Below, one piece after another: positions 1 to 10,416 of a DNA stretch of 64,000 bases; the first letter of the stretch is position 1; every line of letters starts with the position of its first letter. The notes beneath the pieces were generated by a model. It had not been told where the DNA came from, made no database searches, and saw only the letters and a program-made list of their open reading frames with translations. The translations under genes were made by a program, and so were the position numbers. Origin of the DNA: Marinobacter salsuginis (GTDB lineage Bacteria > Pseudomonadota > Gammaproteobacteria > Pseudomonadales > Oleiphilaceae); contig NZ_BGZH01000001.1 in assembly GCF_009617755.1 (NCBI RefSeq), forward strand, positions 992,001 through 1,056,000, read 5' to 3'.

Positions 1-904
1 CCGAACTGAGCATCACACTGGCCAGACTGGTGTTCACGATCAGCATCAGGATGCTGACGGAGTTCAGGGTGTAAGCCAGATACAAGGCCAGCCACTGCCC
101 CCAGCGGCGGGAGAACACATCCCACAACCAGCAGGCCGGCGTTGCCGCAAGGCCTGCAATCAGCCAGACCAGCCAGCCCTGCCCCTGGAGCTCGGGCATG
201 GATTCTGCAATTGCTACCAGGAAGGTGGCCGTGACCACATAGCCCACGCCGGCGCAGAAATACGCCAACTGGAGGATCCGTATGAACCGGCTGCGTTCAT
301 CACCTGTTTTGGCCGCACCTGTTTTCGGCAAGGCACAGGCCCTGTAGTCCGGCATCCAGCGCCAGGCAGGCACCAGAAGCGCAAGGGCCACGAGGCCGTA
401 GATTACCCATTGCTGATCCCAGGTAAACGGATCCTTGATCAGCTCCGCGGTAACGGCGGTCAGGACAATCCCGAGGCCGATACCGGAAAAGAACACCCCA
501 AGCTCGGACTTCTGGTTGTGCTTGATCAGCCAGCTCATCAACAGCCCGGCGCCCAACAGCATCCCCGCTGAGGTGCTCAGACCGGAAATGAAGCGCAGCA
601 GGTACCAGAGCCACACATTGGTGGTGTAGCCCATCAGCACAGTGGAGACCACGGCAACCACCAGGCCAAGCTGGTAAAGCCTGACCTTGAGATCAAGATC
701 GCTGATCCGGGTAATGAGCACTGCCCCGGTCAGGTAGCCCGCGTAATTCACAGTAGCCAGCAGGCCCACCACGGACTTGCTCAGCCCGAGCGCAGCCACC
801 ATTTCCGGGATCATCGGCGTGTAGGAGAATCGGGCAATACCGACCATCACTACCACCGAAATCACGCTGGCGACCAGCACCTTGATTGTTTCTATCGGCT
901 TCAC
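1..904 (-). CDS. YbfB/YjiJ-family MFS transporter (3' end beyond window)
   Basis: Membrane transporter of the major facilitator superfamily, MFS_4 (YjiJ/YbfB) type; substrate unknown. The frame opens with GTG at 904 (VKPIETIKVLVAS) and stays open to base 1, so the C-terminal part is missing. The N-terminal helix carries the family-like stretch GIARFSYTPMIPEM, followed by NYAGYLTGA and repeated hydrophobic helices typical of MFS proteins. About 300 residues are present, against about 390 for the family. The only ATG-started frames here are out-of-frame shadows, so the GTG start matters. It lies 30 bp downstream of the EfpL gene on the same strand and may be co-transcribed with it. Confidence 0.8.
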   Translation of the reverse strand, partial: MKPIETIKVLVASVISVVVMVGIARFSYTPMIPEMVAALGLSKSVVGLLATVNYAGYLTGAVLITRISDLDLKVRLYQLGLVVAVVSTVLMGYTTNVWLWYLLRFISGLSTSAGMLLGAGLLMSWLIKHNQKSELGVFFSGIGLGIVLTAVTAELIKDPFTWDQQWVIYGLVALALLVPAWRWMPDYRACALPKTGAAKTGDERSRFIRILQLAYFCAGVGYVVTATFLVAIAESMPELQGQGWLVWLIAGLAATPACWLWDVFSRRWGQWLALYLAYTLNSVSILMLIVNTSLASVMLSS

Positions 905-934
905 GGAGATTCCTTACTGCGAAACGTCTTCAGA

Positions 935-1501
935 TCAGGCGCGGCCCAGGAACTTGCGCTCCTCCACGTTAATGCGAATGCGATCTCCTGTGGAAATGTG
1001 CTCGGGAACCTGAACAACCAGGCCCGTGGCAAAGCGGGCGGGCTTGGTTCTTGCTGTCGCCGAGCCGCCTTTGACAGACGGATCTGTTTCGTCAATCACC
1101 AGCTCCACCGTCGGCGGCAGTGCCAGTGCAACCGGAGCATCCTTCAACAGGATGACCATCACGCCCTGAGTGTCCTCTGAGATGAACAACAACTCGTCGG
1201 CGATGGCTTCACGATTCAGGCTGTACTGGGTGAAGTCTTCGGTATCCATGAACACATACTCATCGCCATCCGCGTAGGAGAAGGTGACCTCCCGACGAGT
1301 GAGATCGGCCAGGTTGAGCATGTCGGAATCCTTGAACGTCTCGTCCAGCTTCTGGCCGGTGACCACGTCATACATGCGCATGCGGTAGAGACTGCCGCCG
1401 GCACGACCCTGAGGCACTGAACGCTCAATATCCTTCACAAAATACACCCGACCATCGTATTCAACGGCGGAATTCTTTTTGATTTCACTGGCTCTGGGCA
1501 T
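935..1501 (-). CDS. yeiP: Elongation factor P-like protein EfpL (YeiP)
   Basis: Paralogue of translation factor EF-P that rescues ribosomes stalled at difficult peptide bonds. 188 residues, the usual family length, with an N-terminal KOW-like domain, then two OB-type domains ending in ERKFLGRA, close to the E. coli protein's ERRYMGRAD. The start [11 protein letters not shown] aligns with E. coli MPRANEIKKG without gaps. The tip of the domain I loop has arginine at position 33 (VPQGRAGGS), the residue that replaces the modified lysine of true EF-P in the EfpL subfamily, so no lysylation enzyme should be needed. Identification rests on recalled similarity along the whole length. Confidence 0.93.
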
Positions 1502-1575
1502 GTCTTATGGTTCCGTAAAATTTGGGGTTTTGGGGCTGCTGATATACCACGACTTCGCCCCGGAATCGATAGCTC

Positions 1576-2607
1576 TTAGCTCACGAAGGCTCGTACATCC
1601 GACAGGAAACGGTCGACCTGTTCAGTGCTCGTAGCCCAGGAACACATCAGGCGGGCACTGCCACCGATAAAGTTGTAAAAGCGCCACCCCCTGGCCCGCA
1701 GAGCTGCCTGCACAGAGTCCGGCATTTCCACAAAAACACCGTTCACCTGCCTCGGATAGCGTAACCGAATACCGGGAAGCCCTTCCAAGCCTTCGGCAAG
1801 ACGCTGTGCACAGGCATTGGCATGGCGCGCATTCTCCAACCACACATCCCCTTCGAGAAGCCCGCACCAGGGTGCCGAAATGTAGCGCATCTTCGAGGCC
1901 AGCTGGCCGGCCTGCTTGCAGCGCCATTCGAAATCCTCCGCCAGAGAACGGTTGAAAAACACCACTGCCTCGCCAAGCGCCAGACCATTCTTGGTGCCCG
2001 AAAAACAAAGAACGTCGACACCGGCCTTCCAGGTAATCTCGGACGGATGTACATCCAGCGCTGCCACCGCATTCGCGAAGCGGGCACCGTCCATATGGAT
2101 ATTAAGCCTGTGGCGATCAGCAACCTCTCGAATAACCCTGAGTTCCTCGGGCGTATACACCGTGCCCACTTCCGTGGCTTGAGTGAGACTGAGCGCCTTG
2201 GGCTTGGGGTAGTGAATGTCGGTCCGTTTGGTGACCAGGTGTTCGATACTCTCCGGCGTAAGCTTGCCGTTTTCCCCCTGCCCCAGAAGAAGTTTGGCGC
2301 CGTTGGAGGCATACTCCGGGCCGCCGCATTCGTCGGTCTCGATGTGCGCAAGCTCATGACAGATCACGCTGTGGAATGACTGGCCAATCGACGCCAGGGC
2401 CAGAGAGTTGGCGGCGGTGCCGTTGAACACAAAGTAAACGTCACAGTCGGTATCGAACAGCTTTCTCAGACCATCCGCCGCTTTTTGCGTCCAGCTGTCC
2501 TCCCCGTAGGCGGGTTCATCCATGCGGTTGGCCGCTTCCATGGCCTTCCAGGCCTGTGGGCAAACACCGCTGTAGTTGTCGCTGGCAAACTGCTCGGACT
2601 GGGACAC
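1576..2607 (-). CDS. ltaE: Low-specificity L-threonine aldolase
   Basis: PLP-dependent enzyme of fold type I that cleaves L-threonine or allo-threonine to glycine and acetaldehyde. 343 residues. Visible motifs: the start region FASDNYSGVCP, the HELAHIETDECGG stretch, the cofactor aspartate in NIHMDGARFANA and the Schiff-base lysine at about K206 in CFSGTKNGLALGE. The family is usually 330-350 residues, so the protein looks complete. It is transcribed away from the LemA-GIDE gene, with 160 bp between the two starts. Cytoplasmic; probably supplies glycine or recycles threonine. Confidence 0.93.
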   Translation of the reverse strand: MSQSEQFASDNYSGVCPQAWKAMEAANRMDEPAYGEDSWTQKAADGLRKLFDTDCDVYFVFNGTAANSLALASIGQSFHSVICHELAHIETDECGGPEYASNGAKLLLGQGENGKLTPESIEHLVTKRTDIHYPKPKALSLTQATEVGTVYTPEELRVIREVADRHRLNIHMDGARFANAVAALDVHPSEITWKAGVDVLCFSGTKNGLALGEAVVFFNRSLAEDFEWRCKQAGQLASKMRYISAPWCGLLEGDVWLENARHANACAQRLAEGLEGLPGIRLRYPRQVNGVFVEMPDSVQAALRARGWRFYNFIGGSARLMCSWATSTEQVDRFLSDVRAFVS

Positions 2608-2767
2608 AACCGCTCCTGAAATCTGAAAGGAAAGCCTTTTACGTTATAGCAACCGCCAGCAGTTGCCAACTTGCCGATACCCCGTTGCCACTGGATTGGC
2701 AGTATGACGAAGCCGGATACTTTATACTCTTGCCCCTTAAAGCCAGTAGCACAGGGGCACTCCCGCC

Positions 2768-4969
2768 ATGAGGCGCTTCAACATCGCCAGCATTCCCGGC
2801 CGGATCATTACCGCCATTCTCGCAATCGGCTGCCTGGCCGGCAGCTACTACGCCATGACCACCGGTCTGAGCCAGCTCACCGAGGCGCGGCAGCTGGAAC
2901 GACTTCCCGAGACCCCCGTTGGAGCATTGACCACGGGCCCTTATGTCATCGCCGGCGAAGTCACCGATCAGTTGGGAACCCTGGAAACGCCCTACTCCAA
3001 GACCGGAGCGGTCTACTATCGCTACAAGCTTGAGGAGGAGTATCGCGACTCCGACGGTGATCTGCGCATCCGCACCCTGGATTCCGGCTCCCGCGGCCGG
3101 GATTTCCTGCTGCGCGACCAGACCGGCTCCGTCACCGTGGCCGCAGGCGGCAACCTCCAAAGTGCCGAGTGGGCCCTGGACCGAACCTATCGCCAACAAT
3201 CGGGCCGACGAATCTATTCGGAGTGGGCCCTCGTTCCGGGCCACACAGCGAGAGTAATAGGCCAGTACGATAGCAATACTTCGTCCATCAGCTTTGCAGG
3301 CCTGGATGATTTCAGTCTGCCCGCTATGGTCTCCAGGAATACCCTGGCCGCAGACAGTGGCGACAGGTTCTTCGAAGCTGCCATCCGCATTTCCATCGCA
3401 ACCGGCCTGCTGGCGCTGGGCGTTGCGCTACTGCTGCCCCTCGTAAAGATTCACCGATTCTGGGTCTACGTCCTGGTGATGACGTTTGCGGTGTCAGGAA
3501 CTCTATCAGTGCTTGGCATCAACAAGCTCCGGCAGGAATGGTCGGCCATCGCCGATTTGTATGAAACCCGCTATCAACAGCTGGATGCAGCCAGCTCCGA
3601 GCCACTGGTGCTTGCCGACGTGGCCGCACTGCAGCAACTGATCCGCCAGAGCACCAGTGGCTGGCTGGACCGATGGATGTTCCGGAGCGTGGTCCAGAAT
3701 CGCCTGCCCGTTCCCGAGCTGGATGAAAGGACAGCCAGCATGGCCCAATCCATCGTGGCCAGCCAGCCCGAAGGCCGATATCAGCACGCCTGGACCAGCA
3801 GGGGGCTGGCAGCAGCCAGCATTATTGCTGCCCTGTTGCTCCTGTGGTTGTCGATCCGGACCGTCAAATTCAAGCGCCTGATTGAGGCGGTTCCCACCAG
3901 CAGCACCCGCGGGCTCAGTTTTGGTCTCTCTGAACTCAAGGCCATGGTGGATGTTGATGATGACCACCCGCCTCTTCGTGACCCACTGAAAAACGAAAAA
4001 TGCGTGGCCTTCGATTACAAGGTGGAAGAGAAGCGTGGCTCCGGAAAAAACGAAAAATGGCGTGTGATAGAGCATCGCCAGGAAAGCGTACCTTTCTGGC
4101 TTGAGGACAACGAGGGGAAGGTTCTCGTACAGCCAGACGGTGCGAAGATCGAATACCCGCAATACCATTCAGAGCGCGAAGGTGAGAGGCGTTACACTGT
4201 GCGCTTCCTCGACACCTTCGTGAACGTCTACTGCCTGGGCTTTGCCGGCCTGGACCGTGACAGGCCGGACCGACTCACAATCCAGAAGGACGAAGCTTCA
4301 CCCTTCCTGATCAGTGGCAACGAAGAAGAGGACATAGTGCTGGACCGCGGAGCACGGGGTTTTGCGGGCATTGCCCTGACCCTCGGCCTGTTCCTGTTTG
4401 CAACCACCGCCCTGTTTGCGGCAGACGGCGGTTTCAGCCCGGACAACCTGATTCTGTCGGCACTGACGGTACCGTTTGTACTGCTCATTTACACCGGCAT
4501 CCTGCACTACAACGACATTGTTTTTCTGAAAAACCGCGTTGATCGGTCAGCCGCCAATATCGATACCATTCTCCAGCAACGCCATGACCTGTGGCCCAAC
4601 CTGGAGAACGTCGTCAAGGCGTCTCTGGCCCATGAAAAACAGCTGCTGAAAGCCATTGCCCAGCTGCGCAACGCTGACCCTGCCGAGATGAATTCGAGCG
4701 GGCAGGCAGACAAGCTGATGCAGTTCGAAAAGAAGGTAACCAACGCACTTCAGGCCCGGATCGAAGGCTATCCGGACCTGAAGAACAATGAGGTGATTCA
4801 GACATTCATGTCGATCATGGCAGAGACGGAAAACTATCTTTCGCTACTGCGAAACAGCTACACCGAGAGCGCCATGATCTACAACACGCGGATTCAGTCG
4901 TTCCCCGACGTAATCCTCGCCAAACTGTTCCGTTTTCGCGAAGCAGCCCAGTTTGGTTCCGAAGCCTGA
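2768..4969 (+). CDS. LemA-GIDE fusion membrane protein
   Basis: Large predicted inner-membrane protein of 733 residues; function unknown. The order is: membrane helix near residues 12-32; a GIDE-like module (GPYVIAGEVTDQLGTLETPY, then YYRYKLEEEY); helices around 205-250 and 345-365; a second GIDE-type module (KNEKCVAFDYKVEEKRG, then VPFWLEDNEGKVLVQPDGA); two more helices around 535-585; and a C-terminal LemA-type helical domain with NRVDRSAANIDTILQQRHDL and the closing YNTRIQSFPDVILAKLFRF. GIDE domains are related to the membrane part of mitochondrial E3 ligase MUL1; no RING finger is present here. The start ATG is the first of the frame. The protein could belong to membrane stress or envelope quality control, which is a guess. 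Confidence 0.8.
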   Translation: MRRFNIASIPGRIITAILAIGCLAGSYYAMTTGLSQLTEARQLERLPETPVGALTTGPYVIAGEVTDQLGTLETPYSKTGAVYYRYKLEEEYRDSDGDLRIRTLDSGSRGRDFLLRDQTGSVTVAAGGNLQSAEWALDRTYRQQSGRRIYSEWALVPGHTARVIGQYDSNTSSISFAGLDDFSLPAMVSRNTLAADSGDRFFEAAIRISIATGLLALGVALLLPLVKIHRFWVYVLVMTFAVSGTLSVLGINKLRQEWSAIADLYETRYQQLDAASSEPLVLADVAALQQLIRQSTSGWLDRWMFRSVVQNRLPVPELDERTASMAQSIVASQPEGRYQHAWTSRGLAAASIIAALLLLWLSIRTVKFKRLIEAVPTSSTRGLSFGLSELKAMVDVDDDHPPLRDPLKNEKCVAFDYKVEEKRGSGKNEKWRVIEHRQESVPFWLEDNEGKVLVQPDGAKIEYPQYHSEREGERRYTVRFLDTFVNVYCLGFAGLDRDRPDRLTIQKDEASPFLISGNEEEDIVLDRGARGFAGIALTLGLFLFATTALFAADGGFSPDNLILSALTVPFVLLIYTGILHYNDIVFLKNRVDRSAANIDTILQQRHDLWPNLENVVKASLAHEKQLLKAIAQLRNADPAEMNSSGQADKLMQFEKKVTNALQARIEGYPDLKNNEVIQTFMSIMAETENYLSLLRNSYTESAMIYNTRIQSFPDVILAKLFRFREAAQFGSEA

Positions 4970-4970
4970 A

Positions 4971-5669
4971 CTAGCCGTTCAGGCCGAGGTGCTCGGCGTC
5001 CTGCTCGATGCAACGATCCAGCAGCGCCAGATAGTCCGCCTTGGCCTTTACCTTGGTTTCACGATGAGCGCGCATGTTCAGGGTCTTGAAGTGGAGCGCC
5101 AGCTCGGTGGCCCGCTCAACCAGCTTGTCCTGGGCGACCACCTCATCCAGGAAGCCCGCCTCTACAGCTCCTTGGGGGTTGTAGATCTCCGCGTTCACGA
5201 CCGAGCGATAGAAGTGCGCAGGCGCCAGTCGATGGCGGGCAATTTCGATTCCGGCATGATGCATGGTCATGCCGATTGCAACCTCGTTCAGGCCGAGTTT
5301 GAAAGGCCCCTCAATACCAATGCGGTGATCCACTGACAGCAGAATGAAGGCACCCTTGGCAATGGCATGGCCGCTACAGGCACCAATAATGGGCAAGGGG
5401 AACGCCGCCAGACGACGGGTAAAGGTGGAGCCAGTCTTGACCAGCGTGGCGGCCTCTTTGGGGCCTTTCTGCATTTCTTTCAGATCATAGCCGGCAGAGA
5501 AAACGCCAGGCTGGCCAGTCAGGATCACAACGGCCTTGTCCTGCTCTGCCCGATCCAGCGCGGCATTGAGCCCCTCGAACACCTCATGGCTCAGGGCGTT
5601 GGCCTTGCCATTGCTGATGGCAATCGTAGCGACACCGTCTTTCAAGTCATAACTTACCAGCTCAGTCAC
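4971..5669 (-). CDS. Enoyl-CoA hydratase/isomerase family protein (crotonase)
   Basis: Crotonase-fold acyl-CoA enzyme, 232 residues. The oxyanion-hole segments are visible as FSAGYDLKEM and IIGACSGHAIAKGAF, and the second half has the LGLNEVAIGM stretch. Some crotonases are 255-260 residues, so this is a short member. The glutamates of typical hydratases are not clearly placed, so the exact reaction (hydratase, isomerase or thioesterase-like) cannot be told. It converges with the LemA-GIDE gene with one base between stops and forms the chromosomal left flank of the integron. Confidence 0.88.
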   Translation of the reverse strand: MTELVSYDLKDGVATIAISNGKANALSHEVFEGLNAALDRAEQDKAVVILTGQPGVFSAGYDLKEMQKGPKEAATLVKTGSTFTRRLAAFPLPIIGACSGHAIAKGAFILLSVDHRIGIEGPFKLGLNEVAIGMTMHHAGIEIARHRLAPAHFYRSVVNAEIYNPQGAVEAGFLDEVVAQDKLVERATELALHFKTLNMRAHRETKVKAKADYLALLDRCIEQDAEHLGLNG

Positions 5670-5801
5670 CTGTACTACCTCTCTACCGGAATTAAAGTGA
5701 GTGTTTGTTTACTTCACTGAACTTGATTGTGTGACACGCGAGCCCAAGATTCAACATCAATTAGTCTTCTTAGTTGCAACTGTCAGATCTATTCTCAGGG
5801 T

Positions 5802-6287
5802 TCAATGATAGGAGGCAAAGTAGGTAAGCAGCGGGCCGATCCAAATCGCGAAAGATACGCAGAGTCCGAATTTACCGGGTTTCAACAGCGTGCTTTTCTT
5901 GGGATTGTTCGGGTTATAGAAAATCTTAACCAAGTCCCCCTGCCGATCCACGCTTTTGAACTGATGCTCGAGAATACCCCTGGCGTTTCGATTGGTGACG
6001 AAGATCCAAGGTGAAACACGCTTGCCCTGATACCTTTTGCCGTGGACCTCATATTCATAGAGGGCGCTGACAACATAACGCGTATCAGCATCATATCGAT
6101 CACTTCCACCAAAGGTGCGGGTGCCTCCGTCCAGTAATTTGCCTGTGACTGAAGGCCACTGCCTCATACGCAACTGGCCGAAGAGCGAAATGCTCATGAT
6201 CAAAAAGCAGTAGAGCGCAATGAAAAACATGACACCTTGCTTTTCACCGGCTCTAGCCAGCTCCCACATCGTAATCAGGTATTCCAC
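5802..6287 (-). CDS. DUF3592 domain-containing membrane protein (terminal gene of the integron array)
   Basis: 161-residue protein of unknown function with two predicted membrane helices, near residues 18-37 and 140-158, around a soluble beta-rich domain. The pattern fits DUF3592: WPSVTGKLLDGG, then YVVSALYEYEVHGKRYQGKRV and FKSVDRQGDLVKIFYNPNNPKKSTL. It lies 149 bp beyond the fourth attC crossover in the same orientation as the cassettes, so it may be a fifth cassette whose attC has been lost, or the chromosomal gene against which the array was built. The expected R'' partner (GGAATAAC on the minus strand) is not found downstream. Confidence 0.75.
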   Translation of the reverse strand: MEYLITMWELARAGEKQGVMFFIALYCFLIMSISLFGQLRMRQWPSVTGKLLDGGTRTFGGSDRYDADTRYVVSALYEYEVHGKRYQGKRVSPWIFVTNRNARGILEHQFKSVDRQGDLVKIFYNPNNPKKSTLLKPGKFGLCVSFAIWIGPLLTYFASYH

Positions 6288-6429
6288 GCGGTTTGCTCTT
6301 TTGGTTGAGGATGGCCTGCCTATTCTCTTTATCTTTTTGAGGGGGAAGAATAGATTTTTTGATGCTGAGCGTGATTATTTCGCCATGACTAAACTCACGC
6401 AACGGTCGCAAAGCGAACATTCAGATTTG

Positions 6430-6509
6430 GGAATAACGCCCGGCTCACACGCCGGTTTGGAGCCGCGAAGCGGCGGAAAATCGGTCGCCGTGCAGCCGAT
6501 TGTTAAGGC
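6430..6509 (-). other. attC site 4 (end of cassette 4)
   Basis: On the minus strand the site runs from R'' GCCTTAAC (6509-6502) through a GC-rich imperfect palindrome containing GGCTGCACGG and CCGCCGCTTCGCGGC to the crossover GTTATTCC (6437-6430). GCCTTAAC is the reverse complement of GTTAAGGC, the junction at the start of cassette 4, as integron theory requires. The TAA stop of the cassette 4 gene lies inside R''. The arm sequences resemble those of attC site 2. Confidence 0.9.
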
Positions 6510-7141
6510 TTTGGCGATTCGCTGAGCCATCCTAAGATATCTGGCAGCCCTATACTGGACAGTAAGGCAAAACCCAGCAAAGCGAATGCGAAAATTAAGA
6601 ACTGCCATGGCCTGGCCCGCATGAATGAAAGCCATACCTTTATCCTTTTTACCGACTCAGGAGTACTCGGCAGGCTATGCAAAGAGACTTCAGCGGTAAG
6701 TACACGACGGGCTTTCCGTAGTGAGTTCTTGACCCCCACTCGATAAGCACTCTCATGTAAATCAAACCGATACACACTTGGATCGAACTGAATTCCGTAG
6801 GACGCAGCCTTTCTACCGATGCCCTCCGAAAAACCGCTGAGCCGATCAAGATATCTCGAATCATCAAAGAGCTCTGAGATCAGACCATTAAGCTCAGCTA
6901 TTTCCTTGGAACTAATTTCAGAATTCTGGTGGCTCAGAACCTTCGCAAGCTCATCCTTTGACAATTTTTCCTTATCCGCGATCAGCTTTAACCAAACAGC
7001 GCTGACCTTTTGAAATGAAGGAACAACAAACCGATTTCCATCATATTTAGCAGACTGATAATAAGCATCTATCTCCGTGCGGGCCGTAGACTCAGACTCG
7101 CTATCAATCGCTTGTAATTTTGTCTTCAGAATTTCAAGCAC
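6503..7141 (-). CDS. Cassette 4 protein of unknown function with C-terminal membrane helix
   Basis: 212 residues with no family recognised. The first 170 residues are charged and probably alpha-helical (for example LKTKLQAIDSESEST and SHQNSEISSKEIAELNG), followed by a basic stretch (NSLRKARRV), then one strong hydrophobic segment near residues 180-200 (FLIFAFALLGFALLSSIGL) close to the C terminus. It is therefore likely a tail-anchored or membrane-tethered cytoplasmic protein. It fills cassette 4 (6437-7169) almost completely: the ATG is 28 bases inside the cassette and the stop overlaps attC. The expression signal must come from an upstream promoter or an earlier cassette. Confidence 0.75.
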   Translation of the reverse strand: MLEILKTKLQAIDSESESTARTEIDAYYQSAKYDGNRFVVPSFQKVSAVWLKLIADKEKLSKDELAKVLSHQNSEISSKEIAELNGLISELFDDSRYLDRLSGFSEGIGRKAASYGIQFDPSVYRFDLHESAYRVGVKNSLRKARRVLTAEVSLHSLPSTPESVKRIKVWLSFMRARPWQFLIFAFALLGFALLSSIGLPDILGWLSESPKP

Positions 7142-7162
7142 AATCGATCAGTTCCATGACTC

Positions 7163-7249
7163 GCCTTAACGCTTTTGTTTAGCGGCGCCCCGACAGGGGC
7201 GTCCGGTGGAGGCCACGGGCCGGAACAAACTACAACAACTTGTTAGAAG
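7163..7249 (-). other. attC site 3 (end of cassette 3)
   Basis: Minus strand: R'' ACTTCTAAC (7250-7242), a central region with GGACGCCCCTGTCGGGGCG, and crossover GTTAAGGC (7170-7163). CTTCTAAC is the reverse complement of GTTAGAAG, the junction that opens cassette 3. The centre (CCGGACGCC-CTGTCG-GGCGCCGCT) is nearly the same as in attC site 1, showing a second attC subtype in the array. Confidence 0.9.
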
Positions 7250-7251
7250 TT

Positions 7252-7641
7252 CTAGTTTGCGAAGAACGCCTTTACCGATTTGGCCACCCTTTCCGTTTGG
7301 CTTGCTTCCAGCACAAGACTGACGCTTGAACTCCATAACTCAGGACCATCAAACTCACTTACTTTTATGTTGAGCATTACGTGGCCAAGCTTATCGGAGG
7401 TTGCGGTTAACTCCAGCTCGCCCTCGATGGAAGTCCACACTTGGGGGCCTTGCCAACCTTTCCATTCTTTTGCGATGAACTCGAAAAAATTGACCAACAA
7501 ATCACAGTCGGTATAACCCCAAACTCTTTTCTCCAGCTTTACGGCAGGACTGTCGTAGCGCACAGAAAAGTAATCAGCATCTCTTTCGCAGAAAGTAAGC
7601 GAGGCTGATGTGCTCCCTGATTTTATGACTGCTGCATCCAT
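7252..7641 (-). CDS. Cassette 3 protein, DUF6228-like
   Basis: 129-residue soluble protein. The middle reads FFEFIAKEWKGWQGPQVW, then SIEGELELTATSDKLGHVML, a pattern I associate with the DUF6228 family, which is small, of unknown function and frequent in accessory regions; this is recall, not a search. There is no signal peptide, membrane helix or metal-binding cluster. The size and beta-rich pattern also resemble toxin-immunity-type proteins, but no partner toxin is nearby. The ATG lies 16 bases into cassette 3 (7170-7656), and the TAG is just before attC site 3. Confidence 0.75.
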   Translation of the reverse strand: MDAAVIKSGSTSASLTFCERDADYFSVRYDSPAVKLEKRVWGYTDCDLLVNFFEFIAKEWKGWQGPQVWTSIEGELELTATSDKLGHVMLNIKVSEFDGPELWSSSVSLVLEASQTERVAKSVKAFFAN

Positions 7642-7649
7642 CCTTCCTA

Positions 7650-7729
7650 CTTCTAACGCCTGGGCTCAGCGGCCGATTTGGAGGCGCCCCGCGCCGGAAA
7701 AGCGGTCCGCTGCAGCCCTTGGTTAGCAC
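7650..7729 (-). other. attC site 2 (end of cassette 2)
   Basis: Minus strand: R'' GTGCTAAC (7729-7722), a core with GGCTGCAGCGGACCGC and CGCGGGGCGCC, then GAGCCCAGGC and crossover GTTAGAAG (7657-7650). R'' is the exact reverse complement of GTTAGCAC at the start of cassette 2. The site begins 15 bases after the TGA of the cassette 2 gene. Confidence 0.9.
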
Positions 7730-7744
7730 TGCCCGAGGCGAAAA

Positions 7745-8362
7745 TCATACTCCGGCCCAACTCTTAGTTTGATTGATCAGCTCATACATAGTGGTATGAC
7801 TGCGTTTTGCAAAACCTGCCCAGTAAGTTACTCCTGAAGTAATTTTTCTGGTGAGATGGACAGTGTTCCGTTTATCGCGCATTCCATTGAGGCTTCGAGT
7901 CAGTTGAGAATCAATAATTCCAGATTCCTCTGCAACTTTGATTCTCCATTCAAAGGTAGTGTTGTTGATGGAATTTAGAGGCCTTCTTCGATTCCAACGC
8001 ATAGCGTTATTTTGGCGTATATCAAAATACTGATACTGGGTGCCTTGCAGCGAATTAGCTTGGTAGGCTTGGCAGATCACATCCGCAAGAAGCGCTTCGC
8101 AGATAGATGCGTAATCAATAATTTGAGCTCTCACATGGGCATACTGTTCTTCGTCGGTTGCGAGCAGAGCCAGCCCAAGCTTATACAGCCATCTTGCGCC
8201 ATAAAGCGTTTCTGCTAGAGCTGTGCGTATATTTTGATCTTGGACATGCGTGAATTCATCATTCTCTAGCTCTGATGTAGTTTTGATGTCCTTTTTCGCA
8301 AACTCGGCCATCGCGTCGATAAAAACCTGGCCAAACTGCTCCTGGATTTTCTTCTCTGCCAC
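7745..8362 (-). CDS. Cassette 2 protein, possible HEPN-like domain
   Basis: 205 residues, mostly predicted alpha-helical and without membrane segments. The centre (YKLGLALLATDEEQYAHVRA, then DYASICEALLADVI) and the later motif MRDKRNTVHLTRK resemble the helical layout and the Rx4-6H signature of HEPN domains such as DUF4145, in which the arginine and histidine form an RNase site. The two residues would be R and H of RDKRNTVH. This is inferred from the motif alone. HEPN proteins often act in phage defence or toxin systems, and here the gene stands as a single cassette (7657-8390) with its ATG 28 bases after the crossover. An upstream GGAGG-type ribosome site is visible. Confidence 0.72.
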   Translation of the reverse strand: MAEKKIQEQFGQVFIDAMAEFAKKDIKTTSELENDEFTHVQDQNIRTALAETLYGARWLYKLGLALLATDEEQYAHVRAQIIDYASICEALLADVICQAYQANSLQGTQYQYFDIRQNNAMRWNRRRPLNSINNTTFEWRIKVAEESGIIDSQLTRSLNGMRDKRNTVHLTRKITSGVTYWAGFAKRSHTTMYELINQTKSWAGV

Positions 8363-8383
8363 AGATGCCTCCTTTCCCTATTG

Positions 8384-8462
8384 GTGCTAACGCTGAGCAC
8401 AGCGGCGCCACGACAGTGGCGTCCGGCGGCCATCGGCCGCGTACTGATGCGGATTGTTATGC
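8384..8462 (-). other. attC site 1 (end of cassette 1)
   Basis: Minus strand: R'' GCATAAC (8462-8456), core with GGCCGATGGCCGCC and ACGCCACTGTCGTGGCG, and crossover GTTAGCAC (8391-8384). GCATAAC is the reverse complement of GTTATGC at the attI junction, which marks the start of cassette 1. The TAA stop of the cassette 1 gene (8457-8459) sits within R''. Confidence 0.9.
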
Positions 8463-8837
8463 ATTTTGCAGTTTTTCGATGACTTGCGAGGGGGTTAGCT
8501 CTTTCCCCTCCCATACATCTACTTTGTGGGCGCCAGCCCCAAGGGCTAGCTCACGCAATATCTTGACTTCCACTTGGCAAAGTCCGTTTTCAGTCATTTC
8601 CAAAGGGTGAATCAAAACCGCGGGGCTTCGTTTGATTAGAGTCTTGGGTAGCACCTTTTGAATGCCCTTCCTCAGCTCGTGCTCGGCTCGCGAAAACTCT
8701 CCAACTAGCAGACGAGAGGTACTGAAAGGCTCCGGGGATGAAACAATTTCGACCGACGGATCACCTGTCACTCTCGCTATTTCGAATCGATTCCGTGAAA
8801 CCTTAACGTAGAGCTTTTCCTCAAACAGCTTTCTCAA
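8457..8837 (-). CDS. Cassette 1 protein, resembles MreB/actin-fold N-terminal part (TTG start)
   Basis: 126 residues if translated from the TTG at 8837, which follows an AAGGAAG ribosome-binding site by seven bases and lies inside the cassette. The longer frame from 8921 would begin in attI and is unlikely to be the captured gene. The stretches EKLYVKVSRNRFEIARV, then LLVGEFSRAEHELRKGI and LRELALGAGAHKVDVWEG recall the N-terminal half of MreB (compare the family's REAALGAGAREV). The nucleotide-binding second half is absent. It could be a stand-alone actin-like fragment or an unrelated fold; function unknown. It is the first cassette, hence probably the best expressed. Confidence 0.65.
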   Translation of the reverse strand: MRKLFEEKLYVKVSRNRFEIARVTGDPSVEIVSSPEPFSTSRLLVGEFSRAEHELRKGIQKVLPKTLIKRSPAVLIHPLEMTENGLCQVEVKILRELALGAGAHKVDVWEGKELTPSQVIEKLQNA

Positions 8838-8852
8838 AACTATGTCTTCCTT

Positions 8853-8920
8853 GCATAACAGCTTATTAGTCTGAATTCTTATTAAACCGCAATGCCACCA
8901 CCCCGTCCAAAACTGAGTCA
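8853..8920 (-). other. attI site of the integron (approximate extent)
   Basis: The crossover GTTATGC lies at 8859-8853 on the minus strand, where cassette 1 begins. Its match to the R'' box of attC site 1 (GCATAAC at 8462-8456) identifies it as the insertion point. The attI site proper extends from here towards intI; I can fix the crossover but not the outer limit. Confidence 0.75.
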
Positions 8921-9161
8921 CGCCCCGGATAATCTTGACTTTTCAGACCCTTACCCTCCGGCTCTCAGGAGCTTTTACTCTCCTGACTCTGTGGAAAGTT
9001 TGCACGCGAGTTATTGTTGCACGTTTCTGCAAGTTAAATCCAAAAGGCCAAAAATTTTCGAATCTAAATCAATGAGCTACTAGAGTGCTCTGTGAAAAAT
9101 GTGCAGCCTCATGCAAATTAAACCGCAGAATTTTGGCATTTTCGGGGCTTTTTCATTATGA
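8921..9161. promoter_or_regulatory. Non-coding leader between attI and intI
   Basis: No convincing gene on either strand. It should contain the cassette promoter (reading left) and the intI promoter (reading right). A TATAAA at 9165-9170, inside the LexA box, could be the -10 of intI; I could not place a convincing -35 for either promoter. Several A/T runs and direct GTGCA/TGCAC words are present. Confidence 0.4.
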
Positions 9162-9177
9162 CTGTATAAATATACAG
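9162..9177 (+). promoter_or_regulatory. LexA (SOS) box upstream of intI
   Basis: The 16-base sequence CTGTATAAATATACAG is CTGT, eight A/T bases, ACAG, a perfect match to the gammaproteobacterial LexA consensus. It ends 23 bases before the GTG of intI and contains a possible -10 (TATAAA). LexA control of integron integrases is known for Vibrio and class 1 integrons, so SOS induction of cassette shuffling is expected here. Confidence 0.9.
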
Positions 9178-9200
9178 CTCTAAGCCACGGAGGGGCGACT

Positions 9201-10169
9201 GTGTCAAAATCACCGTTTCTGCAATCGGTTCGCACAGAAATCAGGACGAAGCAGTACAGTTATCGAACCGAGAAAACCTATCTCTACTGGGTCCGTCAGT
9301 TCATTCTGTTCAATGACAAGAAGCACCCCGAAGTGATGGGCAATCACGAAATTGAGCGTTTCCTGAATCATCTCGCCGTAAATCGAGGGGTCAGCCCCGC
9401 CACCCAAAACCAAGCACTCTGCGCCATAATCTTCCTCTACAAAAATGTGCTGAAAAGGGAGATCGAAAACCTGCAATACAAAATGTCGAAAACGCCCCGG
9501 CGCATGCCCACGGTTCTCAACGCAGAGGAAGTCGCTTCTATTCTGGGGAATATGGAAGCGGAGTATTGGCTAATCACTGCGCTTCTTTACGGCTGTGGCC
9601 TGAGGATCAGCGAAGCTCTCTCGCTTCGTATAAAAGACATAGACCTGAAAAGCCGGAACTTGCTGGTGTTCAACGGAAAGGGCCGAAAAGATCGATATAC
9701 CCTTCTTCCCGGCAATTTGAGAGAGAACATAGAGCGGCAGATTGCCCATTCGCGTGCGATCCATGAGTCCGATCTGGCCGAGGGATTCGGGCTCACGTCG
9801 GTCCCGGCTTCTTTGCATAAGAAGTACGGACCAGTCATGAAAGACTTTGGTTGGCAGTATCTATTCCCATCTTCAACACGATGCGTTCACCCCATTGCAG
9901 GCTATGTTTGCCGACATCACCTTCATCATTCGACATACGCGCGGCAATTAAGGCAGGCCGTACAAGCGAGCGGAATTACCAAACGGGTGACGGCGCATAC
10001 TTTTCGCCACGCTTTTGCCACTGAGCTACTGAGATCGGGAAGTGATATCCGAACAGTCCAGGAAATCCTCGGCCACAGCGATATTCGGACGACTGAAATC
10101 TACACCCATATTATTGGTGATCGAAGAGCAGGAACTGTGAGTCCATTTGATCGTTTGCCGGGTTCTTGA
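9201..10169 (+). CDS. intI: Integron integrase (tyrosine recombinase)
   Basis: 322-residue site-specific recombinase that recombines attI and attC sites to capture, excise or reorder cassettes. It starts at GTG (VSKSPFLQ) five bases after GGAGGGG. The N-terminal SAM-like DNA-binding domain covers residues 1-100 (YRTEKTYLYWVRQFILF). The catalytic residues are visible: R135 in GCGLRISEAL, K160, H266 and R269 in HTFRHAFATELL, H292 in LGHSDIRTTEIYTH and nucleophile Y301. The insertion around residues 200-225 (LHKKYGPVMKDFGWQYLFPS) is the extra patch that separates IntI from XerC/D. All active-site residues are intact, so the enzyme is probably functional. Confidence 0.96.
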   Translation: MSKSPFLQSVRTEIRTKQYSYRTEKTYLYWVRQFILFNDKKHPEVMGNHEIERFLNHLAVNRGVSPATQNQALCAIIFLYKNVLKREIENLQYKMSKTPRRMPTVLNAEEVASILGNMEAEYWLITALLYGCGLRISEALSLRIKDIDLKSRNLLVFNGKGRKDRYTLLPGNLRENIERQIAHSRAIHESDLAEGFGLTSVPASLHKKYGPVMKDFGWQYLFPSSTRCVHPIAGYVCRHHLHHSTYARQLRQAVQASGITKRVTAHTFRHAFATELLRSGSDIRTVQEILGHSDIRTTEIYTHIIGDRRAGTVSPFDRLPGS

Positions 10170-10416
10170 GAAATGACCAAGCGCCCAACCAGGGCAGAAA
10201 GAGCCGAAGATCTGAGGCACTGTGAATGTTCGCTTTTGTTTAGAAGCTGAGGCTCTCGACCGGTCACAGAATGACCGTTCATTGTTGGAATAATGCTATG
10301 CGGCTGATTTGTGCCATATGGGGGAGGGACTCATTAGAGCCAGTCTGAGTATGAAAGATAAAAACACCACTCTCTTCACCTCTGTGCTGGACCCACAGCG
10401 GCCAGATCTTGCACCA

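Follow-up and report, generated by a model that had tools for sequence, protein, structure and literature searches.

Two apparently nested capture systems in Marinobacter salsuginis: an integron as probable cargo of a recombinase-associated module

Integrons combine a recombinase gene lying beside a recombination site with a one-way row of exchangeable units separated by palindromic sites, and their integrase gene intI is read divergently from the array. Several other systems move genes between short sites. Integrons flanked by miniature inverted-repeat transposable elements (MITEs) and integron mobilization units travel between short inverted ends with the help of a pair of MITE copies and a DDE transposase, and the p-dif modules of Acinetobacter plasmids are gene modules that alternate in direction between short sites of the Xer type. 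For the elements called SEs, the excerpted text of PMC5385486 describes inverted ends of 13-19 bp, tyrosine recombinases, a 6-bp spacer and four core genes (intA, tfp, intB and srap) inside the element, and gives no mobilisation genes. Here we analysed a window of 64,000 nucleotides from Marinobacter salsuginis (assembly GCF_009617755.1, contig NZ_BGZH01000001.1, positions 992,001 to 1,056,000 of the forward strand), in which a small integron lies between two short inverted ends, termed L and R, that recur in most genomes of the genus. All positions below are those of the window unless another locus is named.

From sequence comparison we consider it likely that two nested capture systems are present at this locus, with an ordinary inner integron as the cargo of an outer module that would be moved by a recombinase. 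Extended to the genus, and with slightly less confidence, the proposal is of a second integron-like system in Marinobacter, one of independent origin, in which small tyrosine recombinases devoid of a core-binding domain exchange one-way rows of multi-gene modules through palindromic R-spacer-L sites and IntI integrons are passengers. The module system as a body of sequence facts, namely its ends, units, rows and spacer classes, its recombinase genes at near-constant distance and its lack of target duplication, is strongly supported. As a mechanism, it can be put forward with moderate confidence. We infer the role of the two recombinases (REC1 and REC2), the circular intermediate, the direction of transfer and any present-day activity, and these are worded conditionally throughout.

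The two ends of the integron-bearing unit have 13 inverted bases in common. The L end, GGTCGCAAAGCGAACATTC, occupies 6404-6422 (plus strand, no mismatches) with its outer edge at 6404, and the R end, GAATGTTCGCTTTTGTTTA, occupies 10224-10242 (plus strand) with its outer edge at 10242. We compared the window with 19 fetched relatives, which together make up the close intI family of 20 loci. GAATGTTCGCTTTTGTTTA stands behind intI in 15 of these loci and is then followed by 14 different flanks; L072 and L075 lose homology ahead of R, and three further loci lack that side. At the far end of the array, L is found as the inverted partner of R directly after the last attC, and a similar end lies beyond the array in G042 and others. 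Since R lies behind intI and L lies beyond the last attC, positions 6404-10242 form one unit, and the DUF3592 gene at 5802-6287 (minus strand, PF12158) falls outside it. The original prediction had drawn the locus from 5802 to 10169 and attached this gene to the array as a fifth member, and both points had to be corrected, the gene carrying no attC and lying outside the unit common to the relatives. It is not a module of its own either: between 5700 and 6403, L is absent even when 7 mismatches are allowed, and nothing there is convincing as an R.

On the larger scale, the flanks at 1-5766 and from about 10332 or 10427 onward are syntenic in G001, G035 and G079 and the intervening content differs; the chromosomal site of the integron module is, judged from this synteny, a hotspot. 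A possible degenerate L end with 6 of 19 mismatches is located at 10262-10280 (plus strand), 19 bp past R; it may be what is left of a module that once followed. Behind an L-like end in G035, there is sequence that aligns with window bases 10285-10349.

The same ends recur across the genus. At up to 3 mismatches, the M. salsuginis genome carries 7 copies of L and 7 of R (0 and 1, respectively, in the reversed control). Among 124 Marinobacter genomes searched at up to 1 mismatch, there are 502 copies of L in 101 genomes and 363 copies of R in 104, while the reversed-sequence control gave 0 in all 124; both ends occur in 98 genomes and neither in 17. In the loci read, L and R pair as neighbours into 54 distinct units, 887-9597 bp long with a median of 3316 bp, some of which could pair ends from different modules, and at least 7 units hold intI or its remnants. 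Their cargo is varied: the ten module proteins scanned comprise a mercuric-reductase-like flavoprotein, MerB, two cation efflux proteins, an Abi_C/AbiJ-like protein, a 1285-aa CHAT protein, a phosphoesterase, another flavoprotein and two proteins without a family.

The units are arranged in rows that point one way, the strand being shared in 154 of the 156 neighbouring pairs of ends no more than 12 kb apart (overlapping loci are counted twice in this number). Between consecutive units, R is followed by a spacer and then by L. Across 54 distinct junctions, the spacer measures 6-10 bp in 11 (exactly 6 bp in 2) and 19-23 bp in 43, with no spacer of 11-18 bp and none above 23 bp in a search to 60 bp, a count in which 12 of the loci had been chosen with a 6-24 bp spacer pattern. 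Upon folding, 8 of 14 R-spacer-L sites lay more than 2 s.d. below simple shuffles. Many ends stand outside such junctions: for the 91 distinct R ends where the sequence extended far enough, L follows within 60 bp in 49 and at the distance of the REC2 block described below in 1, and neither applies to 41.

The precision of the ends was examined with alignments of at least 400 bp and at least 80% identity whose edge fell within 40 bp of an end. At L, homology set in at offset 0, the first base of the end, in 12 of 16 alignments; at R, it stopped at offset 0 in 7 of 25 alignments, at +1 in 4 and at +3 to +6 in 6. The same 3552-bp unit is present in L126 and L131 with differing spacers on both sides, and the stretch that starts at the REC1-adjacent L in G068 sits in the middle of a row in G020 (99.9% identity over 1488 bp). 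Target duplication of 3 bp or more was found in 0 of 54 modules (shuffle mean 0.5) and in 0 of the 16 modules with no neighbouring end on either side. Exact module junctions are present in 12 named stretches (11 records), 11 from Marinobacter and 1 from Marinobacterium halophilum, and a search of IMG/VR with an exact gapped pattern returned none. Two conjugative Marinobacter plasmids bear junctions, and conjugative plasmids are a plain route of modules between species.

Three further loci illustrate the range of sequence associated with these ends. L102:9963-13820 (G000:C6) is an L-to-R unit whose R has 3 mismatches and whose only protein, of 1285 aa, has a CHAT domain. At L104:17827-19845 (G000:C3), a 672-aa ThiF/JAB-type protein recognised by the PADLOC E1-E2 and JAB models adjoins a lone R end. 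In L101 (G000:C2:60465-77988), L and R stand 17.5 kb apart around many catabolic and transporter genes.

Two small tyrosine recombinases are associated with the ends. REC1 has 278 aa and is encoded in 27 of the 124 genomes, including that of the window (contig 1, 643-1476). Of 30 REC1 loci fetched, the downstream side was read in 23, the other 7 being fragments, one of which (L176) also has L. L lies about 165-350 bp behind the REC1 stop and in the same direction in 15 of the 23 loci, the leader between REC1 and L is recognisably conserved in 13 of these 15, and the DNA past L is different in each. REC1 contains a PF00589 domain (58.9 bits) with residues R55, H221, R224, H248 and Y257 and a long insertion. 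All named families fell below their cut-offs, the best being XerA with 52.9 bits (cut-off 220), and the PDB sequence search gave one weak match, XerA 5hxy. In a tree, REC1 (33 sequences) and IntI (25 sequences) form separate clades with support of 0.975 and 0.986. No SOS box was found ahead of REC1 in 10 loci, and some REC1 copies are broken. Outside the immediate family, REC1 kin at 44-67% identity occur in 22 of 390 genomes and 9 of 142 genera, Marinobacter counted in, and kin at 28-61% are carried on three plasmids. In two genomes of a single non-Marinobacter genus, at L216 and L217 (identical in location to L185 and L191), GCGACAGGAGCGGAC directly follows the stop of the REC1-like gene, and in L217 a palindrome comes after it; GCGACAGGAGCGGAC is possibly the own site of that genus.

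REC2 (204 aa) is found in 39 of the 124 genomes and is absent from that of the window. Its gene lies in a block of about 780 bp between R and L (about 820 bp with the ends) and reads away from L. In 20 loci, L was located 67-70 bp before the start in 17 and R 96-106 bp after the stop in 17, with both in 15. The DNA outside the block ends is mostly different between loci, some of which share related end interiors, and REC2 itself is 95-100% conserved and open in all 20 loci read. In G084, the L of REC2 is followed by an integron module in which intI is broken. REC2 also contains a PF00589 domain (62.7 bits) and passes no named family, with 65.7 bits for XerA. In the loci read, REC2 sits between R and L and not inside complete L-to-R modules. 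Elements of the SE, GInt and Tn554 type carry several recombinase genes within themselves; in a survey of 918 ORFs of at least 110 aa, REC1 appeared in 4 loci, outside an L end; four weak recombinase-like ORFs (16-30 bits) lie in L083, L076 and L070. Genomes with either recombinase number 56 of 124, and 10 have both. All 56 have ends, with a mean of 10.1 per genome compared to 4.4 in the other 68, a comparison uncorrected for kinship.

A mechanism can be proposed from these arrangements. Modules are joined by palindromic R-spacer-L sites whose spacer is 6-10 bp, 19-23 bp or the REC2 block of about 780 bp. REC1 heads some rows, and REC2 sits inside a joining site, divergent from its row. Either enzyme may act on R-spacer-L and excise single modules as circles, which would then be inserted at the head of a row or into a secondary site, the hotspot in the window being one example. 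Within the module, IntI, probably SOS-induced, would insert cassettes at attI between 8859 and 8858 and excise them at attC, and the whole integron, from GGTCGC (6404) to GTTTA (10242), would be cargo of the outer module.

The inner system is a genuine and ordinary integron of known kind: an IntI-type recombinase, attC sites between cassettes and an attI with a variable first cassette are all present. The intI gene (9201-10169, plus strand) encodes 322 aa with a score of 404.7 bits against the NCBIfam integron-integrase model TIGR02249 (cut-off 265), and its catalytic residues R135, K160, H266, R269, H292 and Y301 are placed as originally predicted. In the M. salsuginis genome (4.15 Mb in 10 contigs, 99.9% complete), all other IntI matches score 56 bits or less; across Marinobacter, IntI matches at E 1e-60 or better occur in 84 of the 124 genomes. 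Upstream of intI, CTGTATAAATATACAG at 9162-9177 (plus strand) is what we take to be a LexA-type operator on the presumed consensus, with a comparable box in 12 of 14 loci, and intI is probably under SOS control. Its kin are damaged in several loci, with gaps of about 68, 210 and 485 bp as well as truncations. In G069, G081 and G084, the intI match ends or breaks near residue 112-115 (the contig ends in G081 and G084), possibly from repeated insertion at one place.

For the attC sites, a covariance model was built from 22 sites of the relatives with those of the window excluded; it is chiefly sequence-based, as RNAalifold gave 3 base pairs, two attC shapes being mixed. On the 64-kb window, this model recovered exactly four sites with E values from 1e-23 to 4.3e-7, the next match having E 0.95, and an Rfam scan of the window gave no match. 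The array reads on the minus strand from the attI end of the platform (8859-8920), which is conserved to GCTGTTA with the crossover between 8859 and 8858. Cassette 1 (8391-8858) ends in attC 1 (8384-8464; 59.7 bits, E 1.4e-15), and its ORF, called at 8457-8921, has a weak YjaA-like match (70.8 bits, cut-off 125). The called start, GTG 8921, falls in the integron platform, and the cassette itself begins at 8858; the in-frame TTG at 8837, preceded by AAGGA, is the likelier start. Cassette 2 (7657-8390) carries ORF 7745-8362 (phrog_35412, function unknown) and attC 2 (7650-7729; 30.5 bits, E 4.3e-7). Cassette 3 (7170-7656) carries ORF 7252-7641, a DUF6228 protein (PF19739, 90.5 bits, cut-off 28), and attC 3 (7163-7250; 87.8 bits, E 1e-23). 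Cassette 4 (6437-7169) carries ORF 6503-7141, which matches no family, and attC 4 (6430-6509; 32.1 bits, E 1.5e-7), directly next to the L end. Two of the four sites, attC 2 and attC 4, each fold into one long hairpin on the bottom strand.

Each cassette starts with the reverse complement of 8-9 bases in its own R'' box (GTTATGCA/TGCATAAC, GTTAGCAC/GTGCTAAC, GTTAGAAGT/ACTTCTAAC and GTTAAGGC/GCCTTAAC). The four cassettes, their precise boundaries and their largely unfamiliar proteins all stand as first described. The attI side could be read in the window and 13 relatives, L073 being left out and five other loci lacking that side. In all 14 loci, the platform is kept up to GCWGTTA at the crossover and the first cassette beyond it is different, which supports a cassette content that changes at a fixed integron platform. 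Since the first cassettes differ in this way and the attC model scores the four sites, the alternative of a fixed operon without attC, raised at the outset, fails. The label of a small chromosomal integron thus holds as far as a genuine integron with changing content is meant, and falls short in that the locus is more than a fixed chromosomal integron, sharing precise ends with a large family of units.

Some sequence features lie where the inner and outer systems touch. In many L ends, an attC-type R' box (GTTATC) seems to lie at a constant 14 bp inside, judged by eye, and GCTTTTGTTTA is present in attC 3 and also at R. Over 65 loci, the attC model gave 81 matches, one of which overlaps an R end: in G042, DNA around and after R (L067:4196-4304) matches at 29.9 bits, and attC-like sequence adjoins the intI side. 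L109 and L119 have multiple attC sites beside L ends with no intI seen there, as cassette arrays riding without an integrase.

Several observations weigh against movement of the modules by REC1 and REC2. The spacer does not accompany its module, which fits no simple crossover, and neither a module circle nor a presence/absence pair within one species was seen. In a 55th junction (G024), the spacer is 17 bp long and belongs to neither class. REC1 is missing the usual N-terminal domain, has no L following it in 8 of the 23 loci, and in two of the 15 positive loci (L164 and L169) has a diverged leader; behind its kin in other genera, no Marinobacter-type ends were present in 14 loci read. Of the 68 genomes with neither recombinase, 51 have ends and 17 do not. 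Finally, the R-REC2-L block is itself bounded by inverted ends and may thus be a small insertion element. On such an explanation, the 44-61 bp junctions would be gene-less miniatures of the roughly 820-bp block, and the modules would be DNA between copies, shuffled by homologous recombination or as composites. In 15 of 20 loci, inverted arms do enclose REC2, the DNA to either side of them being mostly different between loci, and conserved arms around a variable spacer would likewise halt alignments at GGTCGC and GTTTA. Against this, half-sites are common, as with the 41 of 91 distinct R ends that lack an L both within 60 bp and at block distance, and because a miniature element would leave whole palindromes, they count against it; in addition, 14 of 15 integron modules finish in an unpaired R with unrelated DNA beyond it, the window having the possible degenerate L. 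We regard the insertion element as unlikely, though it is the main rival.

The remaining explanations fare worse. IntI itself might move the modules, with L and R as degenerate attC or secondary sites and the module as a giant cassette. The abutting of attC 4 on L, the R' box in many L ends, the sharing of GCTTTTGTTTA and the attC-like DNA at R in G042 all speak for such a role. However, alignment edges fall at GGTCGC and GTTTA instead of GTT core sites, many L ends have no attC, and IntI at E 1e-60 is missing from 40 of 124 genomes, most others having just one of 42-48% identity, whereas more than 100 genomes have ends; we find this account improbable. Hardly better placed, and by our estimate a shade lower, is a transposon account, in which the modules have the short inverted ends of an ordinary transposon and are mobilised in trans by the DDE transposase of another element. 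It draws on the 13 inverted bases common to L and R, on the 68 of 124 genomes without REC1 and REC2, and on MITE-bounded integrons, which are reported in the excerpted text of PMC3934969; it is opposed by the complete absence of target duplication from the 54 modules, the fixed spacing between tyrosine recombinase genes and the ends and the lack of any transposase among the 10 module proteins scanned. Lowest in our estimate, and likewise improbable, is an ordinary chromosomal integron and nothing more: its bounding ends would be relics in decay that homologous recombination and conjugative plasmids have spread, and no site-specific system would act on them today. Broken copies of REC1 and of several intI kin would suit it, as would the junctions on two conjugative plasmids, but the edges fall at the identical base in stretches 80-100% alike between loci, and REC2 has stayed 95-100% conserved and open. 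The preferred explanation thus remains an integron carried by a module that REC1 or REC2 may move.

Set against the described systems, the proposed outer system resembles integrons in having a recombinase gene by a site, a one-way row of exchangeable units and a palindromic site between them, with REC2 divergent from its row as intI is from its array. It differs in its recombinases, which are not IntI (against TIGR02249, 13.4 bits or no match for REC1 and 28.6 bits for REC2, cut-off 265), and in its units, which are about 1-10 kb long and carry one to many genes in either orientation, with R-spacer-L sites of about 44-61 bp. The outer system is therefore not an integron by the IntI test, although it is laid out like one. 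With SEs it shares inverted ends, tyrosine recombinases and the lack of mobilisation genes, but the Marinobacter modules have single small recombinases between units, two other spacer classes and rows. Like MITE-flanked integrons, they would let an integron move between short inverted ends, but these ends are 19 bp long, the modules form rows and there is no target duplication. The p-dif modules are likewise gene modules between short recombinase sites, whereas neighbouring Marinobacter modules mostly point one way. Relation to the Gamma-mobile-trio island found no support, REC1 scoring 12.7 bits against GmtZ (cut-off 600) and REC2 matching neither GmtY nor GmtZ. A search of the full-text literature, including the end sequences, with thin coverage of subscription papers and preprints outside its range, returned no description of the outer module system, which is apparently undescribed so far. 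The original prediction had seen the strongest candidate for undescribed biology in the integron with its cassettes; the greatest novelty lies instead in the ends that bound the integron.

If the proposed outer system is real, it would be a second device with the layout of an integron and with other enzymes and another site, which would suggest that this logic evolved more than once. It would also help to explain the shuffling of mercury-resistance, defence and other gene blocks in this marine genus. The same reading would provide a natural route by which a sedentary chromosomal integron turns mobile, as the passenger of another system, and would open that route to testing at this locus.

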